64,000 nt of DNA from a virus, in the IMG/VR virus record IMGVR_UViG_3300020371_000005, positions 17,362 through 81,361 of that record. The stretch is one strand, 5' to 3'. A program made the translations under genes and the position numbers. Of this stretch, positions 16,974 to 43,169 are shown piece by piece. The notes under the pieces are model-generated. The model was not told where the DNA came from and did not search any database. It saw only the letters and a program-made list of their open reading frames with translations. Numbering within the stretch: position 1 is the stretch's first letter; the number at the start of each line of letters is the position of its first letter.

Positions 16974-19900
16974 ATGGCACTAACTCGTCTTAAGAATATT
17001 ATCACGTCTAGGACGGGACGTATTATCTACGTCAACCCTGACGACTTCGATGCATCGGACGCATACGACAATAGAGGTAACTCGGCACTGCGTCCGTTCA
17101 AGACGTTGCAACGTGCCTTCCTTGAAGTGGCAAGGTTCTCCTATCGAGTTGGTCTGAGTAATGACGAATTCGATGCATTCTCCATTTACTTGTATCCTTC
17201 TGAGTATGTTCTAGATAATCGCCCTGGTACTTCTAACTTTAACGAGATTACTCCGTTTGACGAGAATACCAACTTTGATTTAACATCACCCAACAACATC
17301 TTATATAAGTTCAACTCTGTAAACGGTGGTATCATCTGCCCTAGAGGTGTTTCTGTTGTTGGTTCTGACCTTCGTCGTACGAAGATCATTCCTAAGTATG
17401 TGCCATATCCAACGATCAATGCATCGCTTGGTATCACATCTGCTAACGAACCTGGAACTTCTGCAATCTTCAGACTGACTGGTGGTTGTTATTTCTGGCA
17501 GATGTCATTCTTTGATGGTGACAACAATGGTGTTTACTATCGTCCTGACGTAACAGAGACGATTGCACCTAACTTCTCTCACCATAAGATCACTTGTTTC
17601 GAGTACGCTAACACAACTGATCTGGATCTTTATTACCAGAAGATCTCGAAAGCATACGCTACAATTCCTGATACCTCTGGTACGATTGCACAAGACCAGT
17701 TGCAAGCAAGGGTCGAAGAAAACAGAATCGTTGGTCCGATTTCCGACGAATTCCGTGTTTCTCAGATCATTAGAAACGGTCAAACTGCAACAGCATTTAC
17801 TGTTGATATTCAGGACAACCCAGTTAACCACGGTTTCTCTGTGGGTGTTGCTGTTAATATTTCTGGTGTTACTGGACCAACAGAAACCGACTCGAACCTG
17901 TATAATGGTTCTTTCCTTGTTACATCTGCACAGGGTAACCAGTTTACCTATCAGATGTCAGCAGAACCATCAGGTAACGCAATCGGTTCCAACGTTCTTG
18001 TGAAGGTTGAGATTGATACGGTTGACTCTGCATCACCTTATGTGTTTAACTGTTCATTGAGATCTGTTTGGGGTATCAATGGAATGCACGCCGATGGTGC
18101 TGAAGCAACTGGTTTCAAATCGATGGTTGTGGCACAGTTCACGGGTATCTCTCTCCAAAAAGATGACCGTGCTTTCGTGCTATATAACCCGTCAACAGGT
18201 AACTATGAAGCACAAGCGGCGGGATCTGGCGCACACATTAACGGTCTATGCAAATACCGTAAAGGATGGCGTCACGTTCATATCAAAGCATCCAACGACG
18301 CATTCATTCAGGTTGTGTCTGTGTTTGCTGTGGGATTTGGTGACCATTTCTTCAGTGATAGCGGTGGCGACCTTTCTATTACTAACAGTAACTCAAACTT
18401 CGGAAACACCTCCCTGCGATCCAAAGGATTTAAGTCAGCAGCGTTTACAAAGGATAAAGCAGGTCAGATAACACATATTATTCCACCTAAAGGAATCTCT
18501 GATGTTGCTGAGGTTTCTATTAACTGGGTGACATTTGATATTAACAAGATCCGTGCAGCAGCAGATCCTACAAAACTGTATCTGTACGGTTATACAAACG
18601 AGAACGCAAAACCCCCTAGTAAGATTCAGGGTTATACAATCGGTGCACGTAGAGATTCACCTACACTGCCTGATAAGATTAACGTTCTCTTGGTTGCATC
18701 TGGTGCAAACGCACCTACAACTCACACTGCAAAGATCGATCCCTCTGGTCCTACAGTGACGGGTACATCTCCTGGAGATGATGAATCCCCGATCAAGTAT
18801 GATCCTAACCAGTCTAACTGGTACTTGCAGGTTGACTCTGCAAACAATGACATTTATACTACTCTGATTGCGAACTCGCAGTATCAGAACCTGGGCTTTA
18901 CACCGACATCCTTCATCCGTCGTGTGCCTGATGCTCGTGACCTGAAGGACAGAATTTACCGTTTCCGCTACGTTCTTGACAAAGACGCATTCCCAATCCC
19001 CCGTGAACCCATTACTGGTTTCGTGGTGGAACCTAGATCTTCGGAGACGAACTCTCCTGCATATGATAAGACATACTACATCTACGAAGTAGAAACTTAT
19101 CAAGAGTTTGAGCGTGGTGTTGCTGATGGTATCTACTATCTGACATTCCTGAACGCATCGGTTTCTCCTGCAACGTCTAACTTCGACGACTTTGCATTCT
19201 CACAACAGACTGTTGACTTGTATCCTGCATTCGACAGAGACAACCCTGTTGCTGACCCTGGTCCTGCTATCTCTGTTGCAGATAATGATGTTCTGGGTCT
19301 GGTTAGAACAACTGATGGTGCAACTCCTACTCCTAATGAAGACACTAAACTGTCTATTACTAAGGAAACATCACAGTTCTTCCTGCTTGAGCAAGAGAAC
19401 AACCTTGGTTACAATACCACATCCAACACACTGAATAGTATTGTTGTTACTGCACGTTTGGGTGATGAGGAAGAAAGAAAGATTCCTTTGAAACTGAATG
19501 CAGACAACTCTGTTGCACCTATCCTCTGTGAATTGAGAAGATACTCGATTCTTAGAGCATCTGGTCACACGTTTGAGTATCTTGGTTTCGGTCCTGGTAA
19601 CTATTCAACTGCATTCCCATCTACTCAGGTGGAAGTGTTGTCACCAGCACAGGTTAGACTGTCACAGTCACTAAAAGAAGCAGCAGGTGTTGCATACTAC
19701 TCTGGTGTGAACTCTGATGGTGAACTGTTCGTTGGTAACCAGGTGATTAACCCTGTTACGGGTCAGATCACAAACGAAGATATTGCACAGTTGAATGTCT
19801 TGGGTGAAGAAGGTACAACTATTGAGACCTTCTCTGAGATCGTTCTTACCGACAAACTGACTGTTATCGGTGGTGCATCTAACCAGTTGGAATCTGTCTT

Positions 19901-34387: not shown

Positions 34388-34567
34388 ATGATGCACAACA
34401 TCATTTCCAAAGATCAAATGGCAGAATGGAGACACTTTGAACACACTGTTGATACTTGTACTGAAGAACTTGACAATGTGAACGACTACTTCGATTGCCT
34501 AATTGATTGTTCGATTGAAACTAAATCGCACGGAGAATGCAGGAGGATATGTAGAGAAATGCTATGA
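34388..34567 (+). CDS. small hypothetical protein (59 aa)
   Basis: Start ATG 34388 (or 34379/34391). Begins MMHNIISKDQMAEWRHFEHT; helical with four cysteines (TCTEEL, FDCLIDC, GECRRIC) that could bind metal or form disulfides. Followed by a strong terminator. Confidence 0.45.
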   Translation: MMHNIISKDQMAEWRHFEHTVDTCTEELDNVNDYFDCLIDCSIETKSHGECRRICREML

Positions 34568-34584
34568 CACTCACGGTACTGTCC

Positions 34585-34613
34585 ACCGCCCTTGCCCCAG
34601 GGCGGTTTTTTTT
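34585..34613 (+). terminator. strong Rho-independent terminator
   Basis: Perfect eight-base stem ACCGCCCT/AGGGCGGT, six-base loop TGCCCC, then a run of eight T. It ends the small-gene block and overlaps the promoter of the helicase gene: TTGCCC in the loop and TATAAT at 34615-34620 are 17 bases apart. Confidence 0.9.
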
Positions 34614-34620
34614 GTATAAT
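34592..34620 (+). promoter_or_regulatory. promoter TTGCCC-N17-TATAAT nested in the terminator (element E1)
   Basis: The -35 hexamer is in the loop of the terminator and the spacer runs through the 3' arm and T-run. A box CTGTCCACC (34580-34588) lies 34 bases before the -10, matching the spacing in four related elements downstream. Confidence 0.5.
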
Positions 34621-34643
34621 TATGGGACAGACGACAAACAGAC

Positions 34644-35885
34644 TTGACAATCACCCTCCGACCTCACCAGCAACGCGCTCTCGATGCAATGAGCAATGCC
34701 GATAAAGGTCAGATCATTGTGCCTACTGGTGGCGGCAAAACATTCATTATGATTCAGGATTGCCTGCGTCAACTTAACAACGGTCCTAAGACTATTGTTG
34801 TTGTTGCTCCTCGCATTCTTCTTGCTAATCAACTCTGTGATGAGTTTATGCAGCAAGTTTCTAACACTTGGACACACGTTGCACACTGCCACAGTGGTGA
34901 AACTCACTACTTCAGCAGCACCAAGTCTCAAAAGATTGCTCTCTTCGCTAACACTGCAAGAGCAGCAGGTGAGTCTGTAATTATCTTCACAACCTATCAT
35001 TCTCTTGCTCGTGTTGTTGATTCTGGCATTGATATTGATTGTGCTTATTTCGACGAAGCACATAACAGTGTTAAGAGGTCTTTCTTTGTTCCTACTGTCG
35101 CTGTTAGTGATCTCGCTAAGCGTACCTATTTCTTTACTGCTACTCCTCGCATTGCTCGTCATCATCGCGGGATGAACAATGTGGACGTTTATGGTCCTAT
35201 CATCGAGAATGTTCCTGCTCCTGAGTTGTTGAACAACGGCAGCATCATTGCTCCCACGATTGTACCTTTTGAGGTTGATCTTAATCGTGACAAGAAAACA
35301 GCACATCACGCTGATGCTACCACTGTGCAGGATGTGATTGACCAACTGGATGATAATCACGCCGCTAAGGTGCTTGTAGCGGTCCCCAGCAGTCGTGTTC
35401 TCGGTAATATTATTGCCAAGACAGATTTGCTGTTTCAACTCAAGCAGCGCGGTTACAACGTGCTTCACGTTACATCTAAGTTCGGTGCATATGTCAACGA
35501 TAAGAAGGTAAACCGTGAGCAATTCTTCGACACGTTGACTGCTTGGGGCAAGGATAAGGAGAAGAAGTTTGTTATCTTCCACTACAGTATTCTGTCTGAA
35601 GGTATCAACGTGCCTGGTCTTACCCACACAATTCTTCTTCGTAACCTGCAAATCGTTGAGATGGCACAAACAATCGGTCGTGTGATTCGTCTCGATCGTG
35701 ATGATGCTGCTGACATCGCTGCTGGTAACATCGTTGCAGGTAAATTCTCTCTCTATCGTAAACCCACGGGTTATGTTTCTGTCCCCGTGTACAAGAACTA
35801 TGGCAAGCGTACGATTCAGCGTCTCCAAAATGTGTGTGATGCTATCTTCGTCAAGGGTGTTCCCCCTGAGTCGTTTGTTGCATAA
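34644..35885 (+). CDS. superfamily 2 DNA helicase
   Basis: TTG 34644 gives MTITLRPHQQRALDAMSNAD (Q-motif-like RPHQ), Walker A PTGGGKT (residues 27-33), motif Ia VVVAPRILLANQ, motif II CAYFDEAHN (D137), motif III FTATPRIARH, and C-terminal RecA motifs FHYSILSEGINVPGLTH and ETIGRVIRLDR-like AQTIGRVIRLDR. At 413 residues it is a minimal two-RecA SF2 enzyme similar in kind to T4 UvsW but shorter, so I do not call it uvsW. It likely acts in recombination or replication restart. A long reading frame on the opposite strand is a shadow. Confidence 0.8.
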   Translation: MTITLRPHQQRALDAMSNADKGQIIVPTGGGKTFIMIQDCLRQLNNGPKTIVVVAPRILLANQLCDEFMQQVSNTWTHVAHCHSGETHYFSSTKSQKIALFANTARAAGESVIIFTTYHSLARVVDSGIDIDCAYFDEAHNSVKRSFFVPTVAVSDLAKRTYFFTATPRIARHHRGMNNVDVYGPIIENVPAPELLNNGSIIAPTIVPFEVDLNRDKKTAHHADATTVQDVIDQLDDNHAAKVLVAVPSSRVLGNIIAKTDLLFQLKQRGYNVLHVTSKFGAYVNDKKVNREQFFDTLTAWGKDKEKKFVIFHYSILSEGINVPGLTHTILLRNLQIVEMAQTIGRVIRLDRDDAADIAAGNIVAGKFSLYRKPTGYVSVPVYKNYGKRTIQRLQNVCDAIFVKGVPPESFVA

Positions 35886-35888
35886 ATA
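35881..35888 (+). promoter_or_regulatory. late promoter CATAAATA
   Basis: CATAAATA overlaps the helicase stop codon and is 29 bases before the next ATG. Confidence 0.5.
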
Positions 35889-35917
35889 AAACAGGACACT
35901 AACACTGAGAAAAGTAA

Positions 35918-36346
35918 ATGGCATCCGAAACTGTTAATGGGCAGGCAGATCTCCTGCTTGCAAAGTTAGGTGAGAAGGCAAAAGCATACCGTCTCGCTAA
36001 CATCAACAAGAGACTGACTGAGAGTTCTGTTGGTGTTGGATCCGCAGGATTAGGCGCTGGAGGTAGTGCTGACCGCATCCAACAAAAGAAAGACAAAGTA
36101 GAAGCAAATCACGCCTCTGTTACTTGGCAATTCACCAAGGAAGATGGGCAAAACGGTGATCTTATCATCAAAGCGATTGCACCCGCTGATAGAGGTGGAT
36201 ACACTAAAGTTTGGGGATACGTTGATGGTGAGACTGGTAAAGTTCGCCCTGATTTGAATGCAGCATATGTGGATGCTAACAGCATTAGTGACACATATAG
36301 AGCAGCATTCTTTGATAAAATTACACATTTAGGCACACACTGGTAA
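35918..36346 (+). CDS. hypothetical protein under late promoter (142 aa)
   Basis: Starts MASETVNGQADLLLAKLGEK, with a basic helix, a Gly-rich linker (SVGVGSAGLGAGGSADR), and a beta domain (SVTWQFTKEDGQNGDLIIKA). Its late promoter and size suggest a minor virion protein. Function unknown. Followed by a terminator. Confidence 0.5.
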   Translation: MASETVNGQADLLLAKLGEKAKAYRLANINKRLTESSVGVGSAGLGAGGSADRIQQKKDKVEANHASVTWQFTKEDGQNGDLIIKAIAPADRGGYTKVWGYVDGETGKVRPDLNAAYVDANSISDTYRAAFFDKITHLGTHW

Positions 36347-36368
36347 ATCCCTTGTGCCAATTAGATAA

Positions 36369-36425
36369 AGTGTCCACTGAACCACCCCACGGGGTGGTTT
36401 TCGTGTATTCTATGAGAGTCAAAGG
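36369..36425 (+). promoter_or_regulatory. promoter-like element E2 with terminator
   Basis: Contains the perfect inverted box AGTGTCCACT (36369-36378), a hairpin, then TGTATTCTAT (candidate -10 TATTCT at 36406-36411) and the leader AGAGTCAAAGG. The GTCCAC-to--10 distance is 34 bases. Confidence 0.5.
36380..36402 (+). terminator. Rho-independent terminator within element E2
   Basis: ACCACCC/GGGTGGT stem (with flanking C/G able to extend it), tight loop, then TTTTC. It ends the late gene upstream and is directly followed by the next promoter-like sequence. Confidence 0.7.
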
Positions 36426-36434
36426 AACAGCACT

Positions 36435-36716
36435 ATGGAACTCGATCACATCTGTCTCTACTTCGGCAAGGACTCTGATGGTAAAGAATGGTGCATCAAT
36501 GCTCGTGGATTCTCTACACCACGACAGGCAGAAAAGCACGGTCTGTTTATGATGCCAGTGCCTGGGTGTTTCGGATTTGCCGTTATCACTCAAGGAGAGA
36601 ACTTTTGGCAAGTTCGTGAAGATCTGAGCATCCTCCCTGATGACCGTTCGATTACAATGGGAGACTACAATAATTTCAAGATCACCACTCTCGTCGGTAA
36701 ACTTCAGTACGTTTGA
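36435..36716 (+). CDS. hypothetical protein (93 aa)
   Basis: Starts MELDHICLYFGKDSDGKEWC after AAAGGAACAG. Alternating strands and an aromatic, Cys/Met-rich core (HGLFMMPVPGCFGFAVITQG). Introduced by element E2, so probably early or middle expressed. Not recognised. Confidence 0.5.
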   Translation: MELDHICLYFGKDSDGKEWCINARGFSTPRQAEKHGLFMMPVPGCFGFAVITQGENFWQVREDLSILPDDRSITMGDYNNFKITTLVGKLQYV

Positions 36717-36721
36717 CAACA

Positions 36722-36922
36722 ATGACCACTGCAACTTTCCCCATCCTGAGTAAAATGATCCACTCCAAAAAAATGATCCTCGACGTGATCGCAGAAAACC
36801 CACAAACTCACACATTGGACCGTACTCAAAAGTTTATGGTCTTCTGCAACGTTTGTGATAATTTGTTGGACGAAGGTAGGATAACAAAAGCAAACCACAA
36901 GCGGTGGACCGAGATCGTGTGA
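36722..36922 (+). CDS. small hypothetical protein (66 aa)
   Basis: Starts MTTATFPILSKMIHSKKMIL (ATG 36722 preferred to TTG 36713). Ends VCDNLLDEGRITKANHKRWT plus EIV. The layout D-x-I-x-E-x-P...R-x-QKF...L-x-x-G-x-I...H-x-RW-x-x-I suggests a folded helical domain. Function unknown. Confidence 0.5.
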   Translation: MTTATFPILSKMIHSKKMILDVIAENPQTHTLDRTQKFMVFCNVCDNLLDEGRITKANHKRWTEIV

Positions 36923-36932
36923 CAATCGGCAA

Positions 36933-36990
36933 GGTGCACACTATTGCCCCACAGCACCCCAAAATCGTGTATTGTATAAGAGTCAAAGGG
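36933..36990 (+). promoter_or_regulatory. promoter-like element E3
   Basis: Box GGTGCACACT (36933-36942), candidate -10 TATTGT (36970-36975, 34 bases after the aligned box position) and the leader AGAGTCAAAGGG before ATG 36998. The TGTATTGTATAAGAGTCAAAG stretch is almost identical to that in E2. Confidence 0.5.
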
Positions 36991-36997
36991 ATTTCAA

Positions 36998-37249
36998 ATG
37001 CAACTCACTTCAAAAGACGGCAATATGGTTGTTGACTTCTACTCCCTGAAGTTTGCTGATGGGACTGAGCACAACCGTCTTGCTCTCAAAGTTGTTACTT
37101 TCTGCGGTGCAACTCAATCCAAACGTTACATCAACATCAAAGATGTGAAGCGTGAGGTTGAATCTCGCATTGAGGGTTATGGTTACAAACAGACCCGAAT
37201 CAACACCGAAGCGCAGTTGTTCAATTCCGCTCTTGCCTGTGCCTGCTAA
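36998..37249 (+). CDS. hypothetical protein (83 aa)
   Basis: Starts MQLTSKDGNMVVDFYSLKFA, strand-rich then helical (NIKDVKREVESRIEGYGYKQ), ending in a small hydrophobic Cys pair (ALACAC). Introduced by element E3. Confidence 0.5.
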   Translation: MQLTSKDGNMVVDFYSLKFADGTEHNRLALKVVTFCGATQSKRYINIKDVKREVESRIEGYGYKQTRINTEAQLFNSALACAC

Positions 37250-37291
37250 TGTCAATTCTCTATTATTCTGTCCTCTACATTATTACTCACC

Positions 37292-37489
37292 GTGACTTCT
37301 AAATTCTACACAAAAGCGCAAGTTCTTCAACAATTCCGCTACAACTGGAAAGTTGCTTGTATGTCATCACCACGTCTGCGCGGAGATAACATTGCAAAGC
37401 GCGAATCGTGGTCTAATTTTACTGATATGCTCTGCAAATGCAATGAAATTAGTATGAATCAATACGAAAGTTGGACCAACCCGTTTTAA
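37292..37489 (+). CDS. small hypothetical protein (65 aa), GTG start
   Basis: GTG 37292 gives MTSKFYTKAQVLQQFRYNWK, helical, ending NEISMNQYESWTNPF. The aromatic W-x-NPF end looks conserved-type. Function unknown. Confidence 0.45.
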   Translation: MTSKFYTKAQVLQQFRYNWKVACMSSPRLRGDNIAKRESWSNFTDMLCKCNEISMNQYESWTNPF

Positions 37490-37504
37490 TATGACAATCG
37501 CAGA

Positions 37505-37547
37505 GGTGTCCACTATCTTCACACAGGGCACCAATCTGCGTTAATAT
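37505..37547 (+). promoter_or_regulatory. promoter-like element E4
   Basis: Box GGTGTCCACT (37505-37514) with candidate -10 TAATAT (37542-37547) at the same 34-base offset as in E1-E3. Confidence 0.45.
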
Positions 37548-37568
37548 ACATACATCGACAAAAGACCA

Positions 37569-38072
37569 ATGACTGTGACTCTCACTCCCGAACAACGTTA
37601 TCAACAACTGTTCGAGCAGATGTATGAACTCTGCGACCAACAATCTTGGGGAGATCCTTTCTCTTACGCTCGTTCTCGTGAGATTCACTTAGCAGGCGTC
37701 TTGGGTCACACTATCGCAGACGATTATAGTGGTGCTGATGCATACGATGAGGATGGTCCTTGTGAGTATAAATCAACAATCGGCAAAAATCTTACCGCTA
37801 CATATAACGGTATCTCCGTTCAACCAACTTGGAAAGATCAAGTCAATTATCTTATCAATGACAAGATCGGTAAGTATAAGAACCACTATTTCGCACGTTA
37901 TCACCTTGGCAAGATCGTTGAGGTTTACAAACTTTCTGCCGATGATGTGCTTGCTATTCTTATACCTAACCTCAAGCGTCAGTACGAGAATCCCAGCAAC
38001 CGCAAAGATCCTCGTCTCGGATATACTATCTCCAACAGGTATATCAAAGCAAATGGAACACGAATCGTCTGA
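37569..38072 (+). CDS. putative PD-(D/E)xK nuclease-fold protein
   Basis: This 167-residue protein reads REIHLAGVLGHTIADDYSGA, then DAYDEDGPCEYKSTIGKNL with acidic residues (D57 or D60) followed by E66-Y-K68, the D...E-x-K site of restriction-endonuclease-like folds, then TYNGISVQPTWKDQVNYLI and RYHLGKIVEVYKL. The short basic C-terminus could bind DNA. Similar small proteins seem common in T4-like cyanophages. A role in host DNA degradation is plausible but inferred. Introduced by element E4. Confidence 0.55.
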   Translation: MTVTLTPEQRYQQLFEQMYELCDQQSWGDPFSYARSREIHLAGVLGHTIADDYSGADAYDEDGPCEYKSTIGKNLTATYNGISVQPTWKDQVNYLINDKIGKYKNHYFARYHLGKIVEVYKLSADDVLAILIPNLKRQYENPSNRKDPRLGYTISNRYIKANGTRIV

Positions 38073-38298
38073 AGATTTCACTATCTCTTCAATCACTGAA
38101 ACCAACGATTACACTGAAACAATGCAACAATCCATTGATCTCCTCGGTGAACATTATATGGATCAGATCACACGCCACGTTGAGAACAACGACCGCGACA
38201 GTGCTGATGCCATCTTCAAAGAATTTGTTGTTGATGGTGTAGATCCAGAGGATGGATCTTACGAGTGGTTGTTTCTTGATGAAATCACAGTCTCCTGA
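38053..38298 (+). CDS. small acidic hypothetical protein (81 aa)
   Basis: Starts MEHESSEDFTISSITETNDY inside the end of the preceding gene. Strongly acidic, helical (IDLLGEHYMDQITRHVENND). Acidity next to a nuclease-like gene could suggest an inhibitor or DNA mimic, but there is no direct support. Confidence 0.45.
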   Translation: MEHESSEDFTISSITETNDYTETMQQSIDLLGEHYMDQITRHVENNDRDSADAIFKEFVVDGVDPEDGSYEWLFLDEITVS

Positions 38299-38321
38299 GC
38301 AAACTTTCATTATTCTGACCA

Positions 38322-38660
38322 ATGAACACCCAACTGAGACTAATGAACATCCAACTGACTAACATCCAACGCGACGAGTTGATTGTCAACGCGGTTGACC
38401 AAATTGTGGAGGATATGGATATTGACGCTCTTCAACAGTTTGTGAAAGAAACTCTCGCGGAGGGTTATAGTCAATGTGGTGATCTTGAGTTGCTTGATAC
38501 TGTGCTCCTAAATGTGTGTCACGACAATGTAGACGAGTTTGAAGAATTTGCTGAGGATGTACTCACTGAGGATCAACTCAATGTTTACATCGACGACAAC
38601 AATCAAGGCGTCTGGATTGACACTAAAGAAGAACCAAACGAGGCAACGGGATGGCAGTGA
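38322..38660 (+). CDS. acidic hypothetical protein (112 aa; start 38322 or 38343)
   Basis: The first 21 bases are nearly duplicated (ATGAACA-C/T-CCAACTGA twice), so translation could start at ATG 38322 or ATG 38343. The product is acidic and helical (VDQIVEDMDIDALQQFVKET ... DEFEEFAEDVLTEDQLNVYI). Function unknown. Confidence 0.45.
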   Translation: MNTQLRLMNIQLTNIQRDELIVNAVDQIVEDMDIDALQQFVKETLAEGYSQCGDLELLDTVLLNVCHDNVDEFEEFAEDVLTEDQLNVYIDDNNQGVWIDTKEEPNEATGWQ

Positions 38661-38710
38661 CACTTTGAGAATTGGTTTTCCCGTTTTGTATCACCACGAA
38701 CTACCGCGCC
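38656..38710 (+). promoter_or_regulatory. promoter-like element E5 / intergenic repeat copy A
   Basis: Contains AGTGACACT (38656-38664) and, from 38674, a 22-base segment identical to one at 39690, starting GGTTTTCCCGTTTTGTATC. A related GAACTACC and CCCC follow in both copies. TATCAC at 38689-38694 is at the -10 position of the other elements. Confidence 0.5.
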
Positions 38711-38735
38711 CCAGGATCTGTGCAATCATACTGGT

Positions 38736-38924
38736 ATGAACAAAACAAACAACGTGACTCTCTTCTCTGACTCCAACCTGACTGAACTTCAGGATTTTAT
38801 GTTTGACACGATGCTCCCTGCTGATGATTGTGTCGATTGGTTCTGCGATCGTTTCGATGTTAATGCAACTGACGAAGTGATCGATTTCGTTGTTGATGCT
38901 CACTTTGCTTTCCACGGAGAATAA
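38736..38924 (+). CDS. small acidic hypothetical protein (62 aa)
   Basis: Starts MNKTNNVTLFSDSNLTELQD; acidic and helical with VDWFCDRFDVNATDEVIDFV. Function unknown. Preceded by element E5. Confidence 0.45.
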   Translation: MNKTNNVTLFSDSNLTELQDFMFDTMLPADDCVDWFCDRFDVNATDEVIDFVVDAHFAFHGE

Positions 38925-38926
38925 TT

Positions 38927-39079
38927 ATGAACGACATTTTTTCTGACATTCAAGATCAACTAAATTCACTCTCAATCTACAAACGTCCTAATAATGTTCT
39001 TTCAACAACCCAACGGAAAACTGAACTACTTCCCCGACCAACTTACCCCGTCCGAAGCAACAAAACGGATGCAACGTGA
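38927..39079 (+). CDS. possible small protein (50 aa)
   Basis: Starts MNDIFSDIQDQLNSLSIYKR, two bases after the previous stop. The C-terminal half overlaps the next gene and looks less structured (PTYPVRSNKTDAT). Either real or the remnant of a frame-shifted start of the next gene. Confidence 0.35.
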   Translation: MNDIFSDIQDQLNSLSIYKRPNNVLSTTQRKTELLPRPTYPVRSNKTDAT

Positions 39080-39158
39080 GGAGCGTTGGTGTCAAGAACA
39101 CCGCGACGAATTAGAGCGTGATTCTCAAGAACTTTTCGACCAAATGTTTGGAGGTTGA
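38994..39158 (+). CDS. small hypothetical protein (54 aa)
   Basis: Starts MFFQQPNGKLNYFPDQLTPS, then a charged helix (KRMQREERWCQEHRDELERD). Overlaps the previous frame by 86 bases and the next start by one base. Confidence 0.45.
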   Translation: MFFQQPNGKLNYFPDQLTPSEATKRMQREERWCQEHRDELERDSQELFDQMFGG

Positions 39159-39376
39159 TGACAATGAGCGACAACATCAAAGACGTAACAAATTCACCTA
39201 AAGACTGGGAGGATTTTTGGCATTCACCTGAAAAATATGGGTCTTGGGATTACCTAGACTCAGAATCTGAGGGTCTCGATGTGCCTAACCCTCACAACAT
39301 TGATTCTGCTTATGTGCAAGACATTATTGCAGGTAAGGAAGTTTTTCGACGCAAACAATCGCCCCTCAATGATTGA
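39158..39376 (+). CDS. small hypothetical protein (72 aa)
   Basis: Starts MTMSDNIKDVTNSPKDWEDF, acidic and aromatic (WHSPEKYGSWDYLDSESEG), ending VFRRKQSPLND. TGATG coupling on both sides. Confidence 0.45.
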   Translation: MTMSDNIKDVTNSPKDWEDFWHSPEKYGSWDYLDSESEGLDVPNPHNIDSAYVQDIIAGKEVFRRKQSPLND

Positions 39377-39666
39377 TGTTTTATTGCACCGCATTTGGTA
39401 ATGTTCCCGAAGCAAAGTACCCAGCAACTGTATGGAATCACCGCAGCGAACATAACACCAAAGACGAGGCAATTCGCTCAGGTAACTTATCAATGGTTGA
39501 ACCAACAACGATCGGATATGTTATCACTGAGGTCGATGATGTGCGTGGAGTTTGGATCATTGTAGATGAGAAAAATGCAGGAGGGATGCAATACCAATGG
39601 ATTGAAGATGGCAAGATTCAGATCACTAAATCTGAAGCATATCCTCTGCATTACTATCAAGAATAA
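39376..39666 (+). CDS. hypothetical protein (96 aa)
   Basis: Starts MFYCTAFGNVPEAKYPATVW. Alpha/beta pattern with NHRSEHNTKDEAIRSGNLS and IGYVITEVDDVRGVWIIVDE. ATG 39376 overlaps the previous stop. Function unknown. Confidence 0.45.
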   Translation: MFYCTAFGNVPEAKYPATVWNHRSEHNTKDEAIRSGNLSMVEPTTIGYVITEVDDVRGVWIIVDEKNAGGMQYQWIEDGKIQITKSEAYPLHYYQE

Positions 39667-39670
39667 ACCT

Positions 39671-39760
39671 AGTGGACGGTTTCCCAAGTGGTTTTCCCGT
39701 TTTGTATCACCGTGAACTACCTGACCCCTTGGGAACCTGTATATTAAAAGAGTCAAAGAA
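39671..39760 (+). promoter_or_regulatory. promoter-like element E6 / intergenic repeat copy B
   Basis: Contains AGTGGAC (39671-39677), the 22-base repeat shared with 38674 (here from 39690), then a second promoter-like stretch TGTATATTAAAAGAGTCAAAG (39738-39758) that shares the AGAGTCAAAG leader of E2 and E3. It precedes ATG 39771. Confidence 0.5.
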
Positions 39761-39770
39761 ATCACACCAA

Positions 39771-40094
39771 ATGCGTAAGATCGAAACCCAAATGAATGCC
39801 GCTCTCGCTAACAGCAAGAACTGGCAATCTGGCAACACTTCTGTTCACTACAACGAAGAAAACAACACCTCTGTTGTTCGTCTTCACGGTAACAAAATTG
39901 CCGTCTTGGGTGATGACTACCTTGAGATCTTTGATGGCGGTTGGCAAACAACTACCACCAAATCTCGTCTCAATGCTATCATCAACTGCTTCTGCAATGG
40001 CGTCACTGATGGTGTCTTTCAGAAGAATTATGAGTGGTTCGTTCGTGACAACAATGTCGTGAAAGAATTCACCAACGGTTACATCTTTGCCTGA
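39771..40094 (+). CDS. hypothetical protein (107 aa)
   Basis: Starts MRKIETQMNAALANSKNWQS, then a beta sheet (TSVVRLHGNKIAVLGDDYLE) and helix-strand end (RLNAIINCFCNGVTDGVFQK, YEWFVRDNNVVKEFTNGYIF). The layout suggests a single small globular domain, of a kind seen in both cyanobacteria and their phages. Function unknown. Confidence 0.5.
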   Translation: MRKIETQMNAALANSKNWQSGNTSVHYNEENNTSVVRLHGNKIAVLGDDYLEIFDGGWQTTTTKSRLNAIINCFCNGVTDGVFQKNYEWFVRDNNVVKEFTNGYIFA

Positions 40095-40326: not shown

Positions 40327-40337
40327 AGTTACACTTA

Positions 40338-40362
40338 GGGGATCAAATTGATCTCCTTTTTT
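40338..40362 (+). terminator. Rho-independent terminator
   Basis: GGGGATC/GATCTCC stem (one G-T pair), AAATT loop, then TTTTTT. Separates the small-gene block from the next oxygenase gene. Confidence 0.75.
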
Positions 40363-42988: not shown

Positions 42989-43169
42989 GTGGGAGATCTC
43001 TCTCACTGATGAGGAGCGTAAACTTATCTGCAACTCAGGTAAGTGGGCTCTTATCTACAAGGCAGATGTTTGTGGTGGCAAGGAGTTAGAGAAAGTACAA
43101 GCATTATGGCGTTCTATTCGTGAAAAACTAGGAGAGTATGATGACAGTCCCTTCGTTGGAGGTAATTGA
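42963..43169 (+). CDS. small hypothetical protein (68 aa)
   Basis: ATG 42963 preferred (upstream in-frame ATG 42915 would overlap the previous gene more). Starts MKKASATSKWEISLTDEERK; helical with REKLGEYDDSPFVGG at the end. Overlaps the next oxygenase start by 32 bases. Confidence 0.45.
   Translation: MKKASATSKWEISLTDEERKLICNSGKWALIYKADVCGGKELEKVQALWRSIREKLGEYDDSPFVGGN

Follow-up and report, generated by a model that had tools for sequence, protein, structure and literature searches.

An intergenic module with a dyad at near-fixed distance from a -10 hexamer in T4-like cyanophages

Six elements among the small genes of the window

We examined a window of 64,000 nucleotides (positions 17,362 to 81,361 of IMG/VR virus record IMGVR_UViG_3300020371_000005, which is 81,361 bases long) from a T4-like marine cyanophage. 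The closest annotated relatives of this phage are S-BM3, S-P4, Syn30, S-SM1, Syn19, and Syn9, at roughly 70 to 73% DNA identity. Between positions 34566 and 39759, the window holds six intergenic elements on the plus strand, each located upstream of a gene. The initial annotation had placed a box containing GTCCAC before these six genes, exactly 34 bp from a -10-like hexamer in the first four and close to this distance in the last two. The box and its spacing hold for the genes starting at 34644, 36435, 36998, and 37569 but not for those at 38736 and 39771. GTCCAC is found at 34581, 36372, and 37508, exactly 34 bp 5' of TATAAT, TATTCT, and TAATAT, respectively, whereas the aligned letters at 36936, ahead of TATTGT, are a degenerate GCACAC (four of six identical).

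In these four canonical elements, the box overlaps a candidate operator dyad, and all four are matched by a 78-position profile (R1). Element 1 (R1 match at 34563 to 34622) has an imperfect dyad, GACACTC-ACGG-TACTGTC (34566 to 34583), followed by a putative terminator hairpin, ACCGCCCTTGCCCCAGGGCGGT, with seven T's (34585 to 34606; fold z of -4.4) and the -10 hexamer TATAAT (34615 to 34620), upstream of a helicase gene (34644 to 35885). In element 2 (36352 to 36427; E = 2e-15), the right half of the dyad GCCAATT-AGATA-AAGTGTC (36356 to 36374) falls within the box first annotated, AGTGTCCACT (36369 to 36378). A terminator-like hairpin, GAACCACCC-CACG-GGGTGGTTT (36379 to 36400; fold z of -3.2), and the hexamer TATTCT (36406 to 36411) precede the gene at 36435 to 36716. 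The dyad of element 3 (36916 to 36990; E = 2e-18), GACAATC-GGCA-AGGTGCA (36921 to 36938), has a degenerate right half; its hexamer is TATTGT (36970 to 36975), and the downstream gene spans 36998 to 37249. Element 4 (37490 to 37537) consists of the dyad GACAATC-GCAG-AGGTGTC (37493 to 37510), with the box at 37505 to 37514, and the hexamer TAATAT (37542 to 37547), before the gene at 37569 to 38072.

Elements 5 and 6, upstream of the genes at 38736 to 38924 and 39771 to 40094 (the latter a Kyano_Gp96 gene), form a second subtype that lacks the canonical box. They share a 54-nt repeat (38659 to 38712 and 39675 to 39728; 80% identical), and a dyad-like sequence lies about 15 to 20 bp farther upstream than in the canonical type. 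Element 5 has no box at the canonical spacing, and R1 matches element 6 only in its -10/leader part (39734 to 39761), which comprises the hexamer TATATT and a leader (39739 to 39759). The core of this subtype, TTTTCCCGTTTTGTATCAYGRYGAACTACC, also occurs in S-SM1 and in several IMG/VR contigs (L003:7383, L101:12883, L251, and L252). In other phages, orthologues of the gene at 39771 are preceded by a canonical element, which indicates that element types have been exchanged above the same gene.

As first annotated, three of the elements have a common leader: AGAGTCAAAGG in element 2 (36415 to 36425) and element 3 (36979 to 36989) and AGAGTCAAAGA at 39749 in element 6. In element 2, the leader would cover the start-site region together with the Shine-Dalgarno sequence AAAGGA. 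A variant leader, GGAGTGGAGGGGACAGCACCCC, replaces AGAGTCAAAGG, with a longer 5' leader before Kyano_Gp96 family genes, at several viral loci (L013, L014, L053, L067, and others).

Within the window, the pattern GTCCAC-N28-TANNNT was observed three times against 0.63 expected, a count reached in 1 of 100 shuffles, and the bare box by itself was not enriched. Since these odds are only mildly unlikely, the case had to be decided by other phages.

Spacing, dyad, and phylogenetic range

We scanned IMG/VR for GTGTCCAC followed by CGTGTATNNT at any gap from 12 to 40 (29 permitted spacings). Among the matches listed, which came from 80 loci, 78 of 94 had a gap of exactly 24, the window's own spacing, and every other gap was represented by at most four matches. 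A second scan selected sites on the -10 and leader only (TANNNTNNNAGAGTCAAAGGA), with the box ignored, and returned 146 distinct sites. GTGTCCAC stood exactly 36 bp before the hexamer in 54 of these, and within one mismatch at 35 to 37 bp in 67; control offsets gave at most one exact match. Some of the other sites carry GTGGCAC or GTGTCAC at the box position. Elements less than 70% identical to each other keep the dyad, the -10, and the leader in common, and the spacer diverges.

The initial annotation had often read the box itself as an inverted repeat, but the repeat is not confined to its 10 bp. Instead, the box supplies the right arm to a dyad of 18 to 24 bp that reaches upstream (consensus GMCASTT-N4/5-AASTGKC; right half, GTGTCCAC or a GTGKCACA box), and this larger dyad supersedes the 10-bp inverted repeat. 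In alignments of the -10/leader-selected sites, the upstream arm appears as GTG(A/C)CAGTT 43 to 52 bp before the hexamer. Perfect or near-perfect palindromes occur in P-SSM2 (TGTGCCACTTTAATAACTGGCACA), P-TIM40 (GTGTGACAGTTGGATTAGTGTCACAC), and S-ShM2 (GACAGTTGGTTGAACTGTC); these palindromes, in Prochlorococcus phages and S-ShM2, identify GTGTCCAC as a right half-site. From the TG of the right half-site to the hexamer, the distance is mostly 35 where the half-site is of the CCAC form and mostly 36 where it is of the CACA form, and the distance between half-site and -10 is kept in Prochlorococcus phages despite their different leader. Conservation of the leader can be attributed to the Shine-Dalgarno sequence inside it. 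No TTGACA-like -35 hexamer was conserved at 16 to 18 bp in the aligned sites, where the region is C-rich.

With the transcription start predicted about 12 bp beyond the hexamer's first base, the complete dyad is centered near -53. The initial annotation was right about a fixed upstream site, but its center near -44, as expected for a class II activator, has to be moved, and the class II analogy becomes approximate. Two further observations concern the dyad. Where the box starts with GGTGTCC, the spacer tends to hold GCACC (Fisher P = 0.0007), both in IMG/VR loci and in element 4 (37505 to 37532). The two could pair as an alternative to the dyad, which could be a switch or an inherited linkage. 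Perfect or near-perfect dyad copies also lie beyond the early small-gene clusters, at 118543 and 122595 in S-PM2, 2862 in P-TIM40, and 132717 in P-SSM2.

A separate two-block profile, used to survey viral loci for site counts, strand, and downstream reading frames, found 459 sites in 170 loci. In all 125 loci with multiple sites, every site was on one strand. An ATG reading frame of at least 30 codons followed 422 of the 459 sites, at a median of 30 nt from the -10. The downstream genes encode a wide variety of small proteins, with relatives of the window's 413-amino-acid helicase also represented. In Syn9, all eight sites fall between 43.1 and 53.1 kb, within the small-gene cluster (43 to 53.4 kb) 5' of the baseplate genes, mostly in gaps directly before annotated genes (scores of 14 to 60, compared to shuffle maxima of 1 to 5). 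The eight Syn9 boxes are at 43129, 44790, 46306, 47220, 48574, 49094, 51016, and 53012.

Profile R1 matched all 11 T4-like cyanophage records tested (the window's own included), P-TIM40 and Syn9 among them, and had no match in T4, Ma-LMM01, or 50 cyanobacterial genomes. A relaxed form of the dyad gave 44 forward matches against 8 in the reversed control in the cyanophages tested, and it was at chance level in cyanobacterial hosts (about 30 versus 29). The extended dyad was absent from 50 of 50 cyanobacterial genomes, and the box plus -10 pattern had 16 matches in 79 such genomes, far below the reversed control. The lack of host enrichment for the box pattern, the profile, or the dyad makes a host regulon unlikely, with degenerate host sites still conceivable. 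Together with the scans of relatives, these data strongly support the core of the initial annotation, a conserved phage-specific upstream site that T4-like cyanophages carry ahead of small genes, at fixed distance from the -10.

Comparison with known systems

Doron et al., in 2016 (ISME J 10:1437, doi 10.1038/ismej.2015.210), reportedly described a novel element controlling early-gene transcription in Syn9 and P-TIM40 that is conserved and abundant in T4-like cyanophages. The window-type module is likewise present in Syn9, in the small-gene cluster, and in P-TIM40. It is very probably the same element. The class proposed in the initial annotation is therefore of doubtful newness.

The module also recalls the cassettes known from T4-like phages as PeSL (promoter early-stem loop; Arbiol 2010 and Comeau 2014, as cited in PMC4503421). 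Both lie in intergenic gaps and recur among the small variable genes of such phages, and the module may share the pairing of a terminator-like stem-loop with an early promoter. PeSL promoters are described as strong sigma70 types. The module described here differs in having no -35 and an added palindromic candidate operator at fixed spacing. The swapping of element types above orthologous genes is an indirect hint of a possible role as a recombination joint.

T4 early promoters (UP/-35/TGn/-10; PMC2988021) share with the module a host-type -10, extra conserved upstream sequence, and a position before prereplicative small genes. In contrast, they have a good -35 and UP element, and R1 found nothing in T4. 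T4 middle promoters are similar in that a phage-specific box replaces the -35. Their MotA box is centered at -30, 12 ± 1 bp from the -10, and bound by a monomer (PMC2988021), whereas 28 bp separate the end of the cyanophage half-site, itself part of a dyad, from the -10. A MotA-type promoter was rejected, as WWWTGCTTtA is not conserved in the spacer and both sequence and spacing are wrong. Given this mismatch and the reported absence of motA and/or asiA from cyanophages (PMC5780444), early is a better label than middle for what had been called an early/middle class.

Class II promoters without a -35, such as those of cyanobacterial NtcA, similarly have a dyad upstream of a lone -10. The NtcA site, however, reads GTAN8TAC and is centered at -41.5, compared to GMCASTT-N4/5-AASTGKC near -53 here; the GTA-N8-TAC dyad is not found in the consensus. 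A CRP-type site (TGTGA-N6-TCACA) has similar half-sites but different spacing and was set aside.

Proposed mechanism and its rivals

The variable half-site positions did not covary across 229 representatives (Fisher P = 0.18 and 0.60), consistent with recognition of the DNA by a dimer. The spacer arms, on the other hand, covaried above permutation (z of 5.3; controls, 0.9, 0.2, and -1.8). With the strong hairpins and T runs of elements 1 and 2, this is consistent with a terminator that closes the upstream unit; elements 3 and 5 have no clear spacer hairpin. We consider it likely that the module is a phage-specific composite of a terminator and an early promoter, with an operator in place of the -35 that is bound by a dimeric protein contacting host RNA polymerase. 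Several observations weigh against this interpretation. A longest-stem test of the dyad arms detected weak pairing (z of 3.3), only about one-fifth of the spacers fold clearly better than shuffles, so that the terminator is not universal, and the leader is absent in Prochlorococcus phages. In addition, the label early draws on gene context and on the 2016 abstract. The window's small-gene cluster ends in one more terminator-like hairpin, AGGGGATCAAATTGATCTCCT-TTTTTATTG (40337 to 40357), which has a T run.

Who reads the dyad is a more tentative matter. One possibility, somewhat less likely than not, is an early-promoter operator exclusive to phages and read by a phage protein, brought in with the virion or synthesized first, that would replace the -35 contact of the polymerase. 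The dyad might instead bind a regulator borrowed from the host, as proposed for NtcA and Pho boxes in cyanophages. The earliest transcripts need host machinery, and host-type NtcA and Pho sites have been reported in cyanophage genomes (PMC3037559). The host searches described above argue against borrowing, as box, profile, and extended dyad alike were not enriched or not found and the relaxed dyad was at chance, and we regard it as unlikely, though less so than the next two alternatives. In one of these, a phage repressor bound to the dyad would turn off the early genes as infection proceeds. Several phages do have perfect dyads resembling homodimer operators, but with its center near -53 the site falls outside the -35/-10 core, and the constant distance points to a contact favorable to the polymerase; we consider repression improbable.

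We give about the same small chance to the other, in which the inverted repeats would form stem-loops in RNA or DNA, serving mainly as terminators and recombination joints of the PeSL type, and the box would be kept through pairing and not by a protein. The covarying spacer arms, the weakly paired dyad arms, the hairpins of elements 1 and 2, and the swapped element types all point in this direction, as does the greater likeness of copies within a contig (57.3%) than between contigs (53.1%). Yet the variable dyad positions do not covary, and a stem-loop needs neither a conserved box sequence nor a fixed distance to the -10. A dyad acting only as an RNA hairpin was rejected for the lack of half-site covariation, though the weaker arm test makes some hairpin contribution at the dyad conceivable. 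Chance, or recent duplication of a single intergenic sequence in the window phage, could be suspected from the related repeats (elements 3/4 and 5/6) and the modest odds of about 1 in 100 in the window alone. It is refuted by the cross-phage spacing test, with hundreds of diverged copies at the same spacing in other phages, and we give it practically no weight.

As a candidate binder we considered phrog_385 ("transcriptional regulator"), of which a member lies outside the window (G000:C1:9607-9831). Its distribution follows that of the element: all 11 phages have it, and T4 and Ma-LMM01 do not. The family was not adopted, as any core cyanophage gene would be distributed in this way and the protein has no solved relative and no recognizable DNA-binding motif.

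Under the composite promoter model, each compact intergenic module would close one early transcription unit and open the next. Its parts in Synechococcus phages would be, from 5' to 3', the operator dyad, a GC-rich spacer often containing a terminator-like hairpin, the -10 at near-fixed distance, and the leader. Host RNA polymerase would recognize the -10, and the dyad would hold a dimeric DNA-binding protein that may touch the polymerase and substitute for the absent -35.

T4-like cyanophages are abundant marine viruses without the T4 middle-promoter machinery. A candidate operator with exact geometry, present in every T4-like cyanophage tested and absent from the host genomes, opens the redirection of host RNA polymerase by these phages to direct experimental test. 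Bait DNA, a rule for the spacing, and a list of candidate promoters in the model phages Syn9, P-TIM40, S-PM2, and P-SSM2 are now in hand. If the model is true, an operator for a phage protein would be a third route to the takeover of host polymerase, besides the strong promoters and Alt and the MotA/AsiA system of T4.

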